38,389 nt of DNA. It comes from a virus. A program made the translations under genes and the position numbers. A model generated the notes under the pieces. It searched no databases, was not told where the DNA came from, and worked only from the letters and a program-made list of their open reading frames with translations. The stretch spans positions 1-38,389 of the IMG/VR virus record IMGVR_UViG_3300035703_000205. One strand, 5' to 3'. Positions 10,736-31,070 of this stretch are shown in pieces (positions within the stretch are counted from its first letter, which is position 1; each line of letters opens with the position of its first letter).

Positions 10736-11575
10736 TTACTGCGCGTGATTGCGTTTAGCGAAGAGCTCCGCGCCGCGTCCGGTCTTGGTCACTTCGGCGA
10801 ATGCCTTGGCGAACGTGACCTTCTTTTCGGCGGCGAAATCTTCTGCCATCTTGTTGAGTTCGGTCATGGCGTCGGTCTCTTGCGGAGCGACGCTGCCGAA
10901 CTCGCGGGTCAGCTTCGAGGCGAGAGCGTTCGCGCCTTTCAGCATAGCATGGGCTGCCTTGCGGACAGCTTCATCAGCGATCGCGTCGACCGCTTTGAGA
11001 ACTTCGCCCTTGGTCACGGCGTCGCCTGCCAAGTGCGGGATTTCGGCGCTCACGCGCTTGACCAGCTCTTCGGCTTCCAGCTTCTTTGTGACGGCTGCGA
11101 GTTCGTCAGCCTGCTTTGAGATCACCGACAGGACGCTCGCAGGGAGCGCGCTTTTCAGGATCGTCTCGCCACCGACTTCGATATAGTCTTCGGCTTTGCG
11201 CTTCTCGACAGTGACAGCCTCATCCGCAAGTTGGACGACATAGCCTTCGGTCTCAAGCGATTTTACAAGCGCGTCGACAGAACCTTCGAGGCGCTTGTTT
11301 GCCGCCTCGAGTTCCACGAGGCGCTTTTCTTGATCGGACATAGATTGACCCCCTTTGCCCGGATCGCCGGACGGGCCGGCCCCCTTGCTGCGCCTCATCT
11401 GCGCAACCTGTTTGCGGGCGTCGTCCTCTGACATCCCTCCCGCAATCAGTTCTTTGATTTTGTCTTCGTCTGGCATCATGTCGCGCTTGAACATCACGAC
11501 ACGCGCAGCCGGGTTTGCGGGTTCGTCGACCAGCGAGAGCTCGATCAGTTCCAGATCCGTCAGATTATACGGCAT
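10736..11575 (-). CDS. Scaffold protein carrying the C-terminal strand of the capsid protease
   Basis: 279-residue Lys/Glu/Ala-rich, coiled-coil protein between protease and decoration genes: the expected head scaffold. Helices start around residue 95 (QEKRLVELEAANKRLEGS) and continue to the C-terminus. Its first 35 residues are different: LTDLELIELSLVDEPANP resembles the conserved C-terminal part of XkdF/S78-type proteases (EISLV..PANP.A). The preceding gene stops just before this part, in another frame, with an 11-base overlap (ATG 11575, TAA 11565). Either the two are coupled separate products, or a +1 shift makes a protease-scaffold fusion; the second would mirror protease/scaffold fusions known in other phages. 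Confidence 0.75.
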   Translation of the reverse strand: MPYNLTDLELIELSLVDEPANPAARVVMFKRDMMPDEDKIKELIAGGMSEDDARKQVAQMRRSKGAGPSGDPGKGGQSMSDQEKRLVELEAANKRLEGSVDALVKSLETEGYVVQLADEAVTVEKRKAEDYIEVGGETILKSALPASVLSVISKQADELAAVTKKLEAEELVKRVSAEIPHLAGDAVTKGEVLKAVDAIADEAVRKAAHAMLKGANALASKLTREFGSVAPQETDAMTELNKMAEDFAAEKKVTFAKAFAEVTKTGRGAELFAKRNHAQ

Positions 11576-13016
11576 TGCGTTTCCCCATGCCTCCGATGCT
11601 AAAGGCGGCGAGTTCGCCGCTCTTAACTCTGCTCCATACACTATCATCGTGCACTTTCATAGCCACGATCCACCCTTCCATTGCAGAGTGCACGCCCAAC
11701 GCCTCGCCCAGCGCCTTTGTGAGCGGGAAGGAGTGAATAACCTCCCCGATCTTGCCGCCTTCGTGCATCGCTTTGGCAGTGCGAACGTCGGCCATAAAGT
11801 TGTCGGCGGCCTTGGTCATCACCTCCGCCGAGATGATGTCGCCCTGCCGGTCAATCATCGGCTTGCCATCGATCGACACGACCGACGCCCAGCCCCAAAC
11901 GATGCGCGCTTCGTCGTCGATCTTGATGATCTTAGCCGCGCGCTTTTCCATGCGCGCGTCGATGATCGCGCTGATCGCGGCGTCGATCACGGCTTCGATC
12001 ATCTCGCCCGTCGGATCTTCGACCTCTTCGCCTTCTGGCGACATCATGCCCGCCGTGCCCACCATGTCGAGGTAGTCCTCATGCGTCGCCCCGGGCATAT
12101 AGAACACCTGCCCGTCTGGCCCTTCGGTCATATGCGCGGCGAGCCCCAGCCCGAGCTGTTGCGCGCGCTGCACTGCTTCGATCGACGTCGTGAACACGTC
12201 ATCCGAGATCTGCCGCTTTTCCATCTGGTTCATTTTCGTCATCTCCGAGACTGAGGTTCCGCTTTCCCACATCCGGCACGACCAGTAACGCGCCGAGGTC
12301 TTGTCGGTCGCCGTGTCGCAAGAGTGCCGCGAGCGGAAGTTGGCGCGGGCTTGGGGGTCATCACGGCGGATCTCCATCTTGGGATCGCCGAACGTCACTT
12401 TCTTGGTCTTGTCGCCGTCCTTGACGTAAACGCCGAACTTCTTGCTCGCGCCAGCTGGGAGGCGGAACGGCTGGTCAAGTTCGACCTCGCGCCCCTGATA
12501 GTCGGCTTTCTCGACGCCCCGGGTCGACATAGGATGTTTTTCTGGCAACAGATCCGTGTCGTGCTTGCCCGACCGAAACCGGCCATCGCGGATGGCGCGC
12601 AGGAAATTGTTGACCCGCGCCATAGCCCACTGCTCCGGGGAGCTTACACTGGGCCGCACGCTGCCCGGGTTCGTGCGATACGCGCCGATCCCCCGGTCAT
12701 AGACCTGCCGCAGCATATCGACAGTCACGCGCCCCTTGTCGCCGTCCTCTGCGTTGTGCGCCTCGACCTTGGCGCGCAGCGTGTCCGTTGACACCTTCTC
12801 GAGCGCCTCGTCGGCCTTCTCGATGTAAACGCCGTCCTTGCCCTTTGTGTAGCCTGCGCTCTCGATCGCAGCATACGCCGCGCCGAATGCCCGGCCCTCC
12901 TGATAGCCCCGCTCGATGCTGTCGTTGAACACGCCGCGCCAGATTGATCGCGCCTTATCGCTGGTCAGCACGCGCTTCACCGCGCCCGGTAGATCGTCAT
13001 TGGTTTGATAGGGCAT
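11565..13016 (-). CDS. ChaB-XkdF capsid maturation protease
   Basis: 483-residue multidomain protein. Residues 1-60 (MPYQTNDDLPGAVKRVL... to ...AAIESAGYTK) are a ChaB-like domain. Residues about 130-265 contain VNNFLRAIRDGRFRSGKHDTD and a Cys-bearing segment RHSCDTATDKTSARYWSC. The C-terminal 150 residues form an XkdF-like protease domain: WGWASVVSIDGKPMIDRQGD, a candidate catalytic His in KAMHEGG and Ser in LAAFSIGG. It should process capsid and scaffold subunits. The last conserved strand expected after FSIGG is missing here and appears at the start of the next ORF. The start is ATG 13016 with AAGGA upstream; repeat element A lies just upstream. Confidence 0.82.
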   Translation of the reverse strand: MPYQTNDDLPGAVKRVLTSDKARSIWRGVFNDSIERGYQEGRAFGAAYAAIESAGYTKGKDGVYIEKADEALEKVSTDTLRAKVEAHNAEDGDKGRVTVDMLRQVYDRGIGAYRTNPGSVRPSVSSPEQWAMARVNNFLRAIRDGRFRSGKHDTDLLPEKHPMSTRGVEKADYQGREVELDQPFRLPAGASKKFGVYVKDGDKTKKVTFGDPKMEIRRDDPQARANFRSRHSCDTATDKTSARYWSCRMWESGTSVSEMTKMNQMEKRQISDDVFTTSIEAVQRAQQLGLGLAAHMTEGPDGQVFYMPGATHEDYLDMVGTAGMMSPEGEEVEDPTGEMIEAVIDAAISAIIDARMEKRAAKIIKIDDEARIVWGWASVVSIDGKPMIDRQGDIISAEVMTKAADNFMADVRTAKAMHEGGKIGEVIHSFPLTKALGEALGVHSAMEGWIVAMKVHDDSVWSRVKSGELAAFSIGGMGKRNAV

Positions 13017-13058
13017 ATCAGATCCTTTTCAGGGGAGGACAGAGATTTGAGGAGGGCG

Positions 13059-13125
13059 CAAAATCGGCCAGAACCCCGGAGGTGCGACCCTGCGCTAGCA
13101 GGTCTCCCCTTCGGGTTCCATCCGC
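13059..13125. ncRNA. Candidate structured RNA core, copy A
   Basis: Three nested helices can be drawn: GAACCC (13071-13076) with GGGTTC (13113-13118); a GGAG/CTCC-type middle pair; and CCTGC (13089-13093) with GCAGG (13098-13102) around a GCTA loop. Flanking CGG and CCG can extend the outer stem after a small internal loop. Compared with copy B the inner stem sequence differs (CCTGC/GCAGG versus CCCCGC/GCGGGG) but pairing is kept, which supports selection on structure. Function unknown. Confidence 0.55.
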
Positions 13126-13134
13126 AGGTTCACA

Positions 13135-13185
13135 GGGAGGAGAGGATAATACTATAGGGAAACCTGTCCTCTCCTCCCAGTTTTT
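13135..13185 (+). terminator. Hairpin with T-run, plus-strand direction
   Basis: GGGAGGAGAGGA (13135-13146) pairs perfectly with TCCTCTCCTCCC (13167-13178) around a 20-base loop, followed by AG and five T. It is a strong intrinsic terminator on the plus strand, although all genes here are on the minus strand. Confidence 0.65.
13145..13158 (-). promoter_or_regulatory. Candidate TATA-type promoter box, copy A
   Basis: On the minus strand the loop of the hairpin reads CTATAGTATTATCC; copy B has CTATACTATATCC at the same relative place. Both precede the structured core and then a late operon. No convincing -35 is visible, so this is only a candidate. Confidence 0.3.
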
Positions 13186-13193
13186 GGGCGCGG

Positions 13194-14027
13194 TCAATCG
13201 ACATCTTCGATCCACCCATAGAAGCCCGCCGATGCGGTCGCCGCCTTGTCTGTCGTGACGCGAAACCCGATGATCGCGCCGGCTGGAAATGCCGCCAGCG
13301 CGCCATCCGCGAGCGCCGTTGTGTTGTCTTGCAGTTCGATCGTGCCCTGTCGAAACAGCATCCCGACGTCCTCGAAGCGGTCGACGCTCCCGTCGAGGTT
13401 CCCGATCACTGATGCAACGAATGAGATTTGCACCTTGGCGGCGGAGGTTCCCGAGTTCGCGCCAGCAAATAGCGAATGAACGATCAGCCGCTTGCCATCT
13501 GGGACGCGGAAGGCGGTGCTGCGCGTGCCGCGCGCGCCAGCATCAAGCAGCTTATAGCGAGTGTCGCTGTTCGTGACAGTGATGTCGCCGACAGCGCCTT
13601 TTACAGATCCAAATGTCAGCCCATGCAGATCGCCGACCCAGCGCACATTGGTCGCCGTCGTCAGCACGGGCGTCGTGCCGTTCATCGTCACGATCTCGCT
13701 CTGCGGGTTCAGGTTCGCGTCGAGATAGTTGAACCGCAGCGTTCGAACGCCCGTGCCTGCCGCGCTGTCCTGCGCGCTGGTCGAAACCAGCGTCATCTGC
13801 ACGCCGCCTGCGGGCGCGACGGACGGGTCTTTCACAGTCGAGCCGGGCCATATCATAATATCTGTCACCGCGCCGCTGGTCGTCAGCGTCCCGGTGACAG
13901 CGATCGACTGCGCGCCCTCGACGCGTCCCCGGGCGATCTCGACCTGCTGCGTGAACATCAGTCGCCAGATCCGCTGCGACCAGTCGCGCACGGGCTTGAT
14001 CGTCTTTGTGTAGCCGGTTTCCGTCAT
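13194..14027 (-). CDS. Hypothetical virion protein between MuF and protease genes
   Basis: 277-residue protein, not recognised. It is beta-rich with Thr/Gly/Ser/Ala repeats, has no signal or membrane segment, and ends GFRVTTDKAATASAGFYGWIED. The composition resembles head fibre or decoration proteins. ATG 14027 overlaps the stop of the preceding small ORF (ATGA), so it is co-translated with the head genes; its stop lies eight bases from the end of element A. A structural role is inferred only from composition and position. Confidence 0.65.
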   Translation of the reverse strand: MTETGYTKTIKPVRDWSQRIWRLMFTQQVEIARGRVEGAQSIAVTGTLTTSGAVTDIMIWPGSTVKDPSVAPAGGVQMTLVSTSAQDSAAGTGVRTLRFNYLDANLNPQSEIVTMNGTTPVLTTATNVRWVGDLHGLTFGSVKGAVGDITVTNSDTRYKLLDAGARGTRSTAFRVPDGKRLIVHSLFAGANSGTSAAKVQISFVASVIGNLDGSVDRFEDVGMLFRQGTIELQDNTTALADGALAAFPAGAIIGFRVTTDKAATASAGFYGWIEDVD

Positions 14028-18112: not shown

Positions 18113-19578
18113 CAGACCGGCCTCGCCTTGTTGCCCACATGATCACCGATCGCGAATAGACCGGTCGTCTTCTGCCGCTTCGGCGCGACGGCGTTAAAGC
18201 CCGAGCTCGCGGCGTCCGCTTGGTCTTTATACACCGATCTGGGGAAATGTCGAAGCTCTTCTATGAAGTCGCGGTTCCACGCACCGGTCACGATGTCGAC
18301 GTTGCCCGCCTCCATCTGCGCCGCCAGAGGTTCGGCGCGGGTCTCTTTGGATCCGCTCTGCGGCTCGATCCGCACGCGATACCCCGCCAGCCGCACCACG
18401 AAATCACGCGCCTGCGCTTTGCCGGCTTGCCCGGGATCTTGCGGAAGCGAGATCGGCACGTCGTCGCCGTCAAACTCTGCGGCGCTCTCGACCATCTTGC
18501 GCACGCCGTCCGGGCCGAGCCGCGCGCGCCGCACGTCCGCGATGATCACCCGGCGCGCCTCGACGCGCCAGCCGACCAGCACGCCTGCGGTATATGCGCC
18601 GCCCCCGTCGGTCGCCGCGAGATCCCATGCCCTGCACCAGTTGATGTCCTCATCTGGCACGGCGTCGATCGTTTGGATCTTGTCTACCTTGAACAGCCCG
18701 CCTTCGCGCGGCGTCGGGCGTTGCTCCAGCTGGGCGGCGGATGCGTAGGGGCCGAGCGTCTGCACCAGTTCGGCCACCGCCTGCGCAGAGAAGCGCGCGG
18801 GCCACATCAGTTCGTTGGGCTGCGTGCGCGGATCCTGCCAGCCTATCGACGTCGTGCGCGCTCGCGAGGGGTCATAGTGCATCGGGATCAACAGGTGCTC
18901 ATAGCCCTGCTCTAGGGCCGCTGCGGCCACGTCCTCATGGTGCACGCGCTGCATGATCGTGACGAACGCGCTGCGATCTAGGTCGTTCACGCGGCTGGGC
19001 ACGACCTCGCGGAACCATTGCAGCGTTTCGCCCCGGATCGCCTCGCTCTCCGCCTCCAGCACGTTGTGCGGGTCATCGATGACGAACACATCGCCGCGCT
19101 CGCCTGTCGCGCGCCCGCGCACCGATGTCGCCATCATGGATCCCGTCGCGGTGTTCGCGAAATTTACTTTCTGCGCTTGGTCATCAGATAGCCGCACGCT
19201 AGGGAATAGCCGCTGGTAAAGCGGGCTCTCCACGATCATCTTGGCGCGCCTGTTGTCGCGCGCTGCCAACGCTTCAGCATAAGACGCGCCGATATAGCGC
19301 AGCGACGGGTCTTTTGCCCAACTCCACGCGGGCCAGAACGCGCGCGTCAGCAGCGATTTCATCGACCCGGGCGGAACAGTGATCAGCAGCTTGCGGATCT
19401 CGCCCCGCGTGACTGCCTCAAGGTGCTCTGCAATCGCCTCGATCGGCCACCCAGTGACCAGCTGCCGCCCGGGTTCAAGCACTGGCCAAAATGTCTGCGC
19501 GAAGTAAAGCACAGACCGCCGGCAGAGCTCCGCATCAATTAAGTCTCGATCTGCCGTCGTGATCTTGGGGAGTTGCAT
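18112..19578 (-). CDS. Terminase large subunit
   Basis: 488-residue packaging motor with nuclease. The ATPase has the variant Walker A VPPGSMKS (residues 68-75) and Walker B VFVIDDP (164-170). The C-terminal RNase H-like nuclease shows its acidic sites in WDLAATDGGG, LPQDPGQAGK and KDQADAASSG. I used ATG 19578 (MQLPKITTAD), with AAAGG upstream, rather than the TTG eight codons earlier; either way it overlaps the small subunit. No cos site is evident and no headful signal can be read directly. Confidence 0.93.
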   Translation of the reverse strand: MQLPKITTADRDLIDAELCRRSVLYFAQTFWPVLEPGRQLVTGWPIEAIAEHLEAVTRGEIRKLLITVPPGSMKSLLTRAFWPAWSWAKDPSLRYIGASYAEALAARDNRRAKMIVESPLYQRLFPSVRLSDDQAQKVNFANTATGSMMATSVRGRATGERGDVFVIDDPHNVLEAESEAIRGETLQWFREVVPSRVNDLDRSAFVTIMQRVHHEDVAAAALEQGYEHLLIPMHYDPSRARTTSIGWQDPRTQPNELMWPARFSAQAVAELVQTLGPYASAAQLEQRPTPREGGLFKVDKIQTIDAVPDEDINWCRAWDLAATDGGGAYTAGVLVGWRVEARRVIIADVRRARLGPDGVRKMVESAAEFDGDDVPISLPQDPGQAGKAQARDFVVRLAGYRVRIEPQSGSKETRAEPLAAQMEAGNVDIVTGAWNRDFIEELRHFPRSVYKDQADAASSGFNAVAPKRQKTTGLFAIGDHVGNKARPV

Positions 19579-20017
19579 CTGCGATGGCCTTTGACAGTTC
19601 AAGTAGCGCCTCAGTCGATACTTTCGATAGATCGACAGTTTGGATCGGCCCGCCAGCCGCGCCGGTGATCTCGACCTTTTGCGTTTCCGACCAGCGCATC
19701 TGCGTCTTTGTCCACCAGATCATGGCGGTCGTGTCGCCCTTCAGTGCCTTGTTAAACAGCGCGTTCGCAATCTTCCAGTTGGCTGTGGCCTTGCCTTCGT
19801 CCAGCTCGACGCGGAAGTGCTCAAGCAGTGTCTCAAGCGCGATGCCGCCACGCACGAGCAGCCGGATCTGGTGCTGCGGAAGACCTAGACCAGATAGTTT
19901 CTGCACCAGCACGCGCTCTGCCGAGGTTGGCACGAACGCAGGTCGACCCGACCCGGGCTGCGCCCCGCCAAACTTCCGCTTCTTTTCTGGTGTCGGTTTT
20001 CCTGCGGTTTCTGCCAT
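19535..20017 (-). CDS. Terminase small subunit
   Basis: 160-residue DNA-recognition subunit of the packaging complex. The basic N-terminus (EKKRKFGGAQPGSGRPAFVP) is followed by a helix-turn-helix-like region (LSGLGLPQHQIRLLVRGG) and helices ending in MIWWTKTQMRWSETQKVE, a pattern common in phage small terminases. ATG 20017 has GAGGG just upstream and follows the resolvase stop by eight bases; the large subunit overlaps its 3' end by 44 bases. Confidence 0.88.
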   Translation of the reverse strand: MAETAGKPTPEKKRKFGGAQPGSGRPAFVPTSAERVLVQKLSGLGLPQHQIRLLVRGGIALETLLEHFRVELDEGKATANWKIANALFNKALKGDTTAMIWWTKTQMRWSETQKVEITGAAGGPIQTVDLSKVSTEALLELSKAIADATPQDHDGRSRLN

Positions 20018-20025
20018 GATGTCCC

Positions 20026-20505
20026 TCACCGGTATCCTGCCGCATGATACGCTAAAAGCGCGGCCTCCGCTACTCCGTCGTCAGCCAGCGCACGGAACTG
20101 CGATGTAAACGCTTCACCGAACCGCAGTCGGCACAGATCAAGACTGCCCTGCTTTTCCTTGCCCAGCCCTAGATCCCGTTTCCAGACAGCAGGCGTCACC
20201 CAGATCACAGTATCGGCCATCAGCTGCGCGATTGCCTCGACCGCGCCAGTTGCCCGGCCAAAGGTGAACGCTGAGACAGTGCCCTGCCCGGGGCGGGATC
20301 CGACCTGCTCGATCACGGCTTGGTCAATCTGGCCCAGCTGCGTCATCCACACGACCAGCCTGCGCGCATCGATCAGGTTCTTGCCTCTGTTCTTGATCGT
20401 CGGGACGCGCAGCCCAGCGATGAACGCAGGGGGCGCGCCGTCCCTTGTCTCGATCAGCGCGAGCCCTCCGCTTAGTCCGGGGTCGATACCTAAATAGCGC
20501 GCCAT
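20026..20505 (-). CDS. RuvC-like Holliday junction resolvase
   Basis: 159-residue RNase H-fold endonuclease. The acidic motifs are in order: YLGIDPGLSGGLALI (Asp), AVIEQVGSRPGQG (Glu) and LADDGVAEAALLA (Asp-Asp), with WKRDLGLGKEK between them. Phage enzymes of this type resolve branched concatemers before packaging, which fits its place directly upstream of terminase. The start is ATG 20505; the frame follows the HNH gene by 18 bases. Confidence 0.88.
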   Translation of the reverse strand: MARYLGIDPGLSGGLALIETRDGAPPAFIAGLRVPTIKNRGKNLIDARRLVVWMTQLGQIDQAVIEQVGSRPGQGTVSAFTFGRATGAVEAIAQLMADTVIWVTPAVWKRDLGLGKEKQGSLDLCRLRFGEAFTSQFRALADDGVAEAALLAYHAAGYR

Positions 20506-20523
20506 TGGGTGCCTTTTATGTGA

Positions 20524-21024
20524 TCAGCGGATGGGCTTGCGTTTATAAGCCGCTTCCGCCTCGATGCGAGCGAAGACCGCCTCTTTGAAGGTAGGAAAAG
20601 AACCAAGCCGGTGTATGATACCACGCGCTTGGATTTGGGCGCGCCATCGACCTTTGATCTTATCAAAGCTGACCCCGACAGCGCCACTAGTGTTCCTGCC
20701 TCGTCTTTGCACGTCGCGCTCGTCAGGGAGACGCAAATTCTCAATCCGGTTGTCGGTGAATGTCCTGTTCGCGTGGATAATCTTTCCGACCGGCCACTCT
20801 CCGTAGTGCAGCGCCCAGATTACTCGGTGCGCGACAAAAGTGCGGCCATTTATCTTCCCTTGCAGGTAGCCCGAGCCGCCACGCGAAGTGAATGCCTCGT
20901 CATAGGAAGCGCGCAGGTGGGTTGGCATCGCGCCCCAGCTCAGCCAAAACAGCTTTCCCGTATCCGGGTCATACCGCAGGCGTTGACGCAAATAGTCGAT
21001 TGAGGGTAAGTCTTGCTTAGTCAT
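20524..21024 (-). CDS. HNH homing-type endonuclease with AP2-like C-terminus
   Basis: 166-residue protein. The central HNH segment is AHRVIWALHYGEWPVGKIIHANRTF followed by TDNRIENLRL (shown in parts), and the C-terminus NTSGAVGVSFDKIKGRWRAQI matches the AP2/DNA-binding extension of phage HNH proteins. The usual Asp of the DHxNG motif is replaced (IIHAN), so activity is uncertain. ATG 21024 has GAGGTG upstream. It lies between element B and the resolvase-terminase operon, and its low GATC density compared with neighbours fits a mobile gene. Confidence 0.85.
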   Translation of the reverse strand: MTKQDLPSIDYLRQRLRYDPDTGKLFWLSWGAMPTHLRASYDEAFTSRGGSGYLQGKINGRTFVAHRVIWALHYGEWPVGKIIHANRTFTDNRIENLRLPDERDVQRRGRNTSGAVGVSFDKIKGRWRAQIQARGIIHRLGSFPTFKEAVFARIEAEAAYKRKPIR

Positions 21025-21193
21025 GTCGCACCTCTTGTTTAGGTCGATTGATAGGAGCAGGGATTGACGTTGGCGCGTCTCCCTGCCCCGCGTTCTTAAT
21101 TTATTATCCTCCCCTTTGTCAACCGCGTTTAAGGTAGCTAAAGGCGCGCTCTTTTTGTTTTCCCTTCTGGAGGACAGAAAAATCCCGGCTACC

Positions 21194-21262
21194 CAAAATC
21201 GGCCAGAACCCCGGAGGGGTAACCCCCGCTTTAGCGGGGTTTCCCCTTAGGGTTCATACCGG
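21194..21262. ncRNA. Candidate structured RNA core, copy B
   Basis: Nested pairs: GAACCC (21206-21211) with GGGTTC (21250-21255), GGAGGGG with the CCCCTT side, and CCCCGC (21224-21229) with GCGGGG (21234-21239) around a TTTA loop. The layout equals copy A with compensatory change in the inner stem. Either strand can fold; no protein frame spans it. Confidence 0.55.
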
Positions 21263-21282
21263 AGGAGTAGTAGTGGATATAG

Positions 21283-21328
21283 TATAGGGGGGTGTGCCCT
21301 CCCCCCCCCCGCCCCCCCTATAGGTTTT
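21283..21328 (+). terminator. C-tract hairpin with T-run
   Basis: TATAGGGGGG (21283-21292) pairs with CCCCCCTATA (21313-21322), enclosing a loop of ten further C, followed by GGTTTT. It occupies the same place as the terminator hairpin of copy A. The minus strand here is a long G-tract that could also form a quadruplex; length errors in the homopolymer are possible. Confidence 0.5.
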
Positions 21329-21424
21329 AAGGGTTTCTGGCGCGCTGGTTTTGCGCGCTTGGAGTAGACGTTTTTGTGCACTCCCTCTGTCCTCCCAGCA
21401 CTTCATTTGGCGCGCAGCTGGGGG

Positions 21425-25064: not shown

Positions 25065-25134
25065 GACCGGTCTTGACGTTCCTTGCGACCGGTCTTACAT
25101 CTTGGTCAACGAAACGCAAACACGGAGACCTGCC
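25065..25134 (+). promoter_or_regulatory. Rightward promoter P1 with twin GACCGGTC operators and leader
   Basis: GACCGGTC palindromes at 25065 and 25087 lie exactly 22 bases apart. Between and around them are -35 TTGACG (25073-25078), a 17-base spacer and -10 TACATC (25096-25101). The leader then reads ACGAAACGCAAACA and GGAGACCTGCC before ATG 25135. The whole block recurs as P2 at 31002-31070. Confidence 0.75.
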
Positions 25135-31001: not shown

Positions 31002-31070
31002 GACCGGTCTTTACATTCCTTGCGACCGGTCTTATATAGGATATACGAAACGCAAACAAGGAGACCTGCC
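31002..31070 (+). promoter_or_regulatory. Rightward promoter P2 with twin GACCGGTC operators and leader
   Basis: Near-copy of P1. AAGACCGGTCTT, a perfect palindrome, begins at 31000; the second GACCGGTC is at 31024, 22 bases from the first. -35 TTTACA (31010-31015), 17-base spacer, -10 TATATA (31033-31038), a better consensus than P1. The leader again reads ACGAAACGCAAACA then GGAGACCTGCC. Confidence 0.8.

Follow-up and report, generated by a model that had tools for sequence, protein, structure and literature searches.

What signal stands ahead of the late genes in this phage, and is it recognized as DNA or as RNA? The window analysed here is the whole of the 38,389-base IMG/VR virus record IMGVR_UViG_3300035703_000205 (positions 1 to 38,389). 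Its minus-strand genes extend from ~3.7 kb to 25 kb and encode tail, capsid, protease/scaffold, head morphogenesis and portal proteins, and in the same run also the large terminase, a RuvC-like protein, an HNH endonuclease, a methylase and a primase-helicase. A second block on the plus strand encodes a helicase, a nuclease, DNA polymerase A and a beta-clamp-like protein; we call this block early and the minus-strand genes late from their gene content, not from expression. An element of ~150 bases occurs twice, one copy ahead of each late block of packaging or shell-building genes: copy A is intergenic before the head block and copy B before the terminase block, as an initial annotation of the sequence had placed them. 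By protein similarity the nearest named phages include several phages of alphaproteobacteria (Rhizobium, Roseobacter group; 37–64% identity), and the host group of these uncultured bacterial viruses is probably the alphaproteobacteria.

Since both copies lie between minus-strand genes, the element is most likely read on the minus strand. This reading relies mainly on location and orientation before genes; in 23 of 34 copies the minus-strand hairpin also has a slight edge in stability, which carries little weight by itself. The initial annotation had read the plus strand, where it saw a "TATA hairpin plus T-run". That feature is well formed only in copy A, while the dyad of copy B is degenerate with G/C homopolymers. 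The simplest reading of the feature is as the −10 region of a promoter, not as the 3′ end of an RNA. The copy B dyad (21264–21325) has G and C runs of up to 10 and could be slippage-prone. The statement that no coding frame crosses the element has to be corrected, as a mechanical 104-aa plus-strand ORF (12944–13258) spans copy A; it looks spurious. An intrinsic terminator was considered on either strand and rejected. On the sense strand the scores are negative and below threshold (−18 for copy A, −5.5 for copy B and −2.6 for the relative L030 with a longer T-run, against +10 for a nearby ordinary terminator as control) and most copies have only TTTT. On the plus strand the score is −14.9 and the T-run is not conserved, being often absent among relatives, several of which have TGAACAAAG there.

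Read 5′ to 3′ on the minus strand, the element consists of a dyad, GGGAGGAGAGGACAG...TCCTCTCCTCCC, whose arms enclose a CCTATA −10-like box, then a nested hairpin of ~66 nt ending in CCG-N-TTTT, a Shine–Dalgarno sequence and ATG (Table 1). The dyad consensus is GGGAGGAGAGGACAG-RTTTCCC-TATAGT-ATTMTCC-TCTCCTCCC with the −10-like box in its centre; several copies have TATATACT in the dyad instead and retain a TATACT box. After a linker of ~0–20 nt follows one nested, interrupted hairpin of 66–68 nt with the consensus CGG-nnn-GAACCC-..-GGGG-..-CCYGC-TANN-GCRGG-..-CCCC-..-GGGTTC-UGG-CCG-N-UUUU, then a variable spacer with CTGTCCTCC, then AAGGATCT and the start codon. In relatives the hairpin usually lies ~30–55 nt upstream of a conserved start codon.

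Table 1. Features of the two copies of the element and of the adjoining genes (window coordinates)
Feature	Position	Strand	Evidence
Copy A dyad enclosing CAGGTTTCCCTATAGTATTA, proposed late promoter core	13135..13178 (arms 13135-13146, 13167-13178)	-	conservation, alignment
Putative -10 box of copy A, TATAGT (some other copies have TATACT); a -35 is not recognisable	13151..13156	-	sequence and alignment; promoter function inferred
Copy A leader RNA hairpin, CGG-nnn-GAACCC..GGGTTC-TGG-CCG, then ATTTTG	13059..13124	-	folding, covariation, conservation
CTGTCCTCC motif downstream in copy A, in inverted orientation to the GAGGACAG of the dyad	13034..13042	-	motif search
Shine–Dalgarno AAGGA of the 483-aa protease/scaffold gene	13023-13027	-	
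483-aa protein with XkdF-like protease domain, gene 1 of the head block, next after copy A	11568..13016	-	Pfam PF14550 1.5e-16
GGAGGACAG motif upstream in copy B; in some relatives a repeat with an 11-nt period	21387..21395	-	motif search
Copy B degenerate dyad/promoter region, TATACT at 21281-21286, G/C homopolymer tracts	21264..21336	-	sequence
Copy B leader RNA hairpin, then ATTTTG	21194..21261	-	alignment, folding, covariation
Copy B downstream CTGTCCTCC motif	21169..21177	-	motif search
HNH/AP2 homing-type endonuclease that separates copy B from the RuvC-like gene as an insertion	20527..21024	-	Pfam PF13392
RuvC-like Holliday junction resolvase, directly after copy B in most relatives	20029..20505	-	phrog_1770 8e-24

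In relatives the genes after the element are kept, together with their start codons and Shine–Dalgarno sequences: the gene after copy A encodes a protein starting MPYxxND (protease/scaffold), the gene after copy B a RuvC-like resolvase starting MAR(Y/F)LGIDPG. The HNH insertion behind copy B is found in the window and in at least two relatives (tblastn, G001 and G003), the HNH gene at this place in G003 being less similar (70%), and a TTGACA-bearing stretch near 21100–21130 may be the gene's own promoter. In G003 the terminase large-subunit gene (19912–20825) is also split, by an insert of ~912 nt that is probably an intron or homing element.

The resemblance of the two copies within the window is as it had been described: an exact 24-base match (CAAAATCGGCCAGAACCCCGGAGG at 13059 and 21194; 91% over 32 nt), an identical outer stem GAACCC/GGGTTC and an inner stem altered in compensating fashion, CCTGC/GCAGG in copy A and CCCCGC/GCGGGG in copy B. 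The conserved spacing proposed for the upstream sequence holds in part. The distance from GGAGGACAGA to the core is equal in both copies, but the spacing of GGAGGACAG is not conserved in relatives, and some of their B copies have a degenerate motif or none. Among class A copies the promoter core (measured over 30 nt) is 90% and the hairpin 89% identical, compared with 69% at third codon positions of the next gene; spacer and linker reach 74–75%. In class B the promoter core is 91% and the hairpin 93% identical, with 63% at third codon positions, 66% in the spacer and 88% in the linker. The element is under selection. Unpaired positions of the hairpin are also strongly conserved, which argues for recognition of the RNA over mere stability.

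The main hairpin folds with −31.2 kcal/mol (z −2.7) in copy A and −40.0 kcal/mol (z −4.9) in copy B, relative to shuffled sequences. Three of its 20 pairs show compensatory variation (alignment columns): 109/128 is A-U or G-C (22/11), 113/122 is U-A or C-G (20/14), and 89/148 changes from G-C to C-G in L032. Since the change at 113/122 coincides with the split between classes A and B it counts as few events, and the pair 109/128, which varies inside class A, is the better evidence for structure. Both sides change in 26 cells, where shuffles give 9.4 and slid partners no more than 6; 97.4% of cells are paired, compared with 36–62% with the partners slid. Judged by comparison of the copies, the hairpin stem is real. 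Many of the covarying cells nevertheless track the class split, and the same sequence may therefore still be recognized at the DNA level. No covariation beyond composition was detected in the dyad arms (744 of 5040 permutations were as good). Two observations concern the history of the copies. In L011 an upstream flank, TTTTCGTTCTCTCTTTGTTCAGGAGG, is common to copies A and B of the same genome, which suggests copying between them, and in L001, L011 (copy B), L029 and L032 the dyad loop has ATACT, the reverse complement, in place of AGTAT with the TATACT box kept, possibly a minute inversion.

The family, to which both window copies belong, is present in ~43 IMG/VR contigs, as counted from those listed. 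They were collected with an exact pattern of 20 bases, with one pattern each for the hairpin and the promoter, and with two more added later; such recurrence is far beyond chance. The covariance model finds two sense copies in eight records (G001, G002, G003, G005, G006, G007, G008 and G010), in each case exactly two, on the coding strand and at the same two sites. One class A copy was found in G004, G009, G011 and G012. G016 gave a partial copy and G013–G015, G017 and G018 gave none, some of these records being fragments. The idea of a late-gene control RNA is thereby supported: the element occurs twice per genome, without exception on the coding strand and before late start codons, and shows covariation, and both the homologues and the compensatory changes (at three pairs) that had been sought as a check are there.

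In the relatives L123 and L119, which have related head genes, the cassette is absent and the two genes abut as TGATG, the overlapping head gene of L123 starting at the same residue as that of the window; the cassette is therefore a discrete optional module. G013 has head and terminase proteins that are 83–92% identical, a different replication module and no element, and its gene after the site of copy A also lacks its N-terminal part. G011 keeps copy A together with a different replication module, and neither the primase-helicase nor the RuvC gene turned up there; the element is thus not strictly tied to one particular early factor. This relative also encodes a Mom-like DNA modification protein (PF25680; L290:11043–11897). 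Among distant viral relatives (the best 80 of 595 by protease and 77 by RuvC) the element is confined to the near clade. A DNA search of named phages gave only a 33-nt chance match. A hairpin pattern, loose in places and strict elsewhere and so a limited probe for prophages, picked out 63 stretches in 84,980 bacterial and archaeal genomes, none of them a real copy by the covariance model, which also found no copy in four alphaproteobacterial genomes. That no described family of this shape is known agrees with our searches: strict and permissive searches of Rfam gave nothing credible and no match at the gathering score, and literature searches returned no description of such an element.

The centre of the dyad has the appearance of a promoter. 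CCTATA is invariant in the 34 aligned copies and a TATAAT-like −10 hexamer is present, TATAGT or TATACT in nearly all copies and CCTTATATACATT in L296–L298. A sigma70 scan for a TTGACA-like −35 at 16–18 nt from the −10 gave no such pair at the element, where the aligned −35 region is a purine-rich GGGAGG. Each element-bearing genome examined has 2–6 occurrences of GAGGACAG, nearly all of them no more than ~200 nt from the element, and all four in the window flank the two copies (0.9 expected). In near-complete genomes the motif is nearly limited to the surroundings of the element, which suggests a dedicated, putative DNA-binding protein. The early plus-strand genes have another signal, GACCGGTC-N14-GACCGGTC over TTGAC promoters. 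These palindrome pairs, with 22 nt spacing around TTGAC, lie at 25065–25094 and 31002–31031 in the window and similarly in relatives, a single GACCGGTC site lies at 18159–18166, and the pairs look like an early operator/promoter system separate from the late element. A ribosome-site box GGAGACCTGCCATG or a near match precedes several early genes (25109, 25480, 31045, 31770 and 32390).

This two-copy, strand-fixed and conserved element, with its real stem and conserved −10-like dyad, is to our mind rather probably a promoter-leader cassette of the late operons on the minus strand, whose RNA acts in cis. RNA polymerase would start inside the dyad at a −10-only promoter, CCC-TATAGT/TATACT; as this promoter is without a −35, it would probably need a phage-made factor that binds the surrounding GGAGGACAG repeats. 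The 5′ end of the transcript would then fold into the one long interrupted hairpin, in which the loops appear constrained in sequence (UGG opposite a variable triplet, and NUUUU at the foot), and we infer that the leader acts on its own late transcript. In the version that we favour, the hairpin would modify the elongating polymerase and allow read-through of the long late block, as HK022 put RNA does; even so, this antitermination version of the cassette is put forward tentatively.

Two alternatives differ from it in how the leader would act in cis. In the version placed second, and which we find rather doubtful, the hairpin would be a 5′ stabilizer of the mRNA, or an RNA-binding protein of the phage or its host would attach to it and control how the first late gene is translated, with transcription unaffected. 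The hairpin is indeed very stable, lies close behind the proposed start and mostly 33–53 nt before the start codon, and in copy A leaves the Shine–Dalgarno sequence outside. However, a plain stabilizer would not need a sequence identity of 89–93% that includes the loops, and because one block begins with a protease/scaffold gene and the other with an unrelated RuvC-like gene, shared autoregulation by a coat protein is less natural. The other version is taken from Lambda pR′/Q late control, where a late promoter is followed by a hairpin and a U-run before the late genes. Here too, a putative late promoter, a hairpin and a U-run stand ahead of late genes, in all 34 aligned copies a single base separates TTTT from the CGG/CCG foot of the hairpin, and it is at this foot that L032 has its compensatory change. 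The hairpin would accordingly be an early terminator, passed only with a late antiterminator. The terminator scores given above are below threshold in both copies and even with a longer T-run, the U-tract is only 4–5 long, and no Q-like gene was recognized among the proteins scanned, all of which make such a switch quite improbable.

The remaining explanations dispense with a leader RNA in cis. The dyad and the GGAGGACAG repeats could be an operator or a recombination or packaging site for a phage protein, the hairpin being a by-product of an imperfect palindrome. Primary sequence is conserved beyond what structure requires, the dyad arms are conserved as an inverted repeat, and GGAGGACAG is repeated with an 11-nt period near copy B in relatives. 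Against this stand the fixed position and orientation before start codons, the compensatory changes at single internal pairs and the U.G and G.U juxtapositions that columns 92/145 and 93/144 show in 27 of 34 copies and that fit a minus-strand RNA, and a function as DNA seems unlikely. Another suggestion of the initial annotation was a plus-strand small RNA that carries its own terminator; such an RNA would act in trans. Copy A does have a 12-bp hairpin followed by TTTTT on that strand, and CTATAGGGAAA there resembles the end of a T7-type promoter, as does the plus-strand reading ACTATAGGGAAA. The rest of such a promoter does not match and its direction is antisense, no single-subunit RNA polymerase of the T7 type was found among the main window proteins scanned (Pfam/PHROGs), the T-run is missing in several relatives and the terminator score is negative, and the orientation of the element before late genes is always the same. 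We regard this possibility as very remote.

The cis-acting cassette also bears comparison with other systems. T4-type late promoters have the consensus TATAAATA, and we know of no such leader RNA attached to them. They drive late genes from a −10 box without a −35 (PMC2988020). The element resembles them in its putative −10 box without a −35, and differs in that its TATAGT/TATACT lies inside a conserved dyad and is not TATAAATA. As a further parallel, the window phage encodes a DNA polymerase III beta-clamp-like protein (PF02767; 31634–32404), in a 38-kb phage that also has polymerase A. The put RNAs of HK022 (putL and putR) are two related elements of ~70 nt per genome, located downstream of the promoters of two long operons; each has two stem-loops conserved in sequence and structure, serves the early operons and suppresses termination via the zinc-binding domain of the polymerase beta′ subunit (PMC9378689). 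Two copies per genome are present in the eight records, with hairpins of 66–68 nt behind two putative promoters. This arrangement recalls put and implies no sequence relation; the element differs in having one long interrupted hairpin and in preceding late operons. As a single hairpin does not agree with the two-stem definition of put, we have not filed the element under that name. It could conceivably represent a new class of factor-independent, put-like antitermination RNA for the late operons of alphaproteobacterial phages, with a −10-only promoter and its own activator site, although we hold this to be rather doubtful.

The element offers a testable RNA family for a poorly studied group of phages, with 40-odd natural variants and a covariance model, and natural relatives that do without the cassette, though their head genes are closely related, are a ready comparison. 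If the leader RNA alters read-through by the polymerase, the late operons would have an equivalent of the RNA-only antitermination described for the early operons of HK022; if the leader only stabilizes the mRNA, the element would still be a compact module for late expression.
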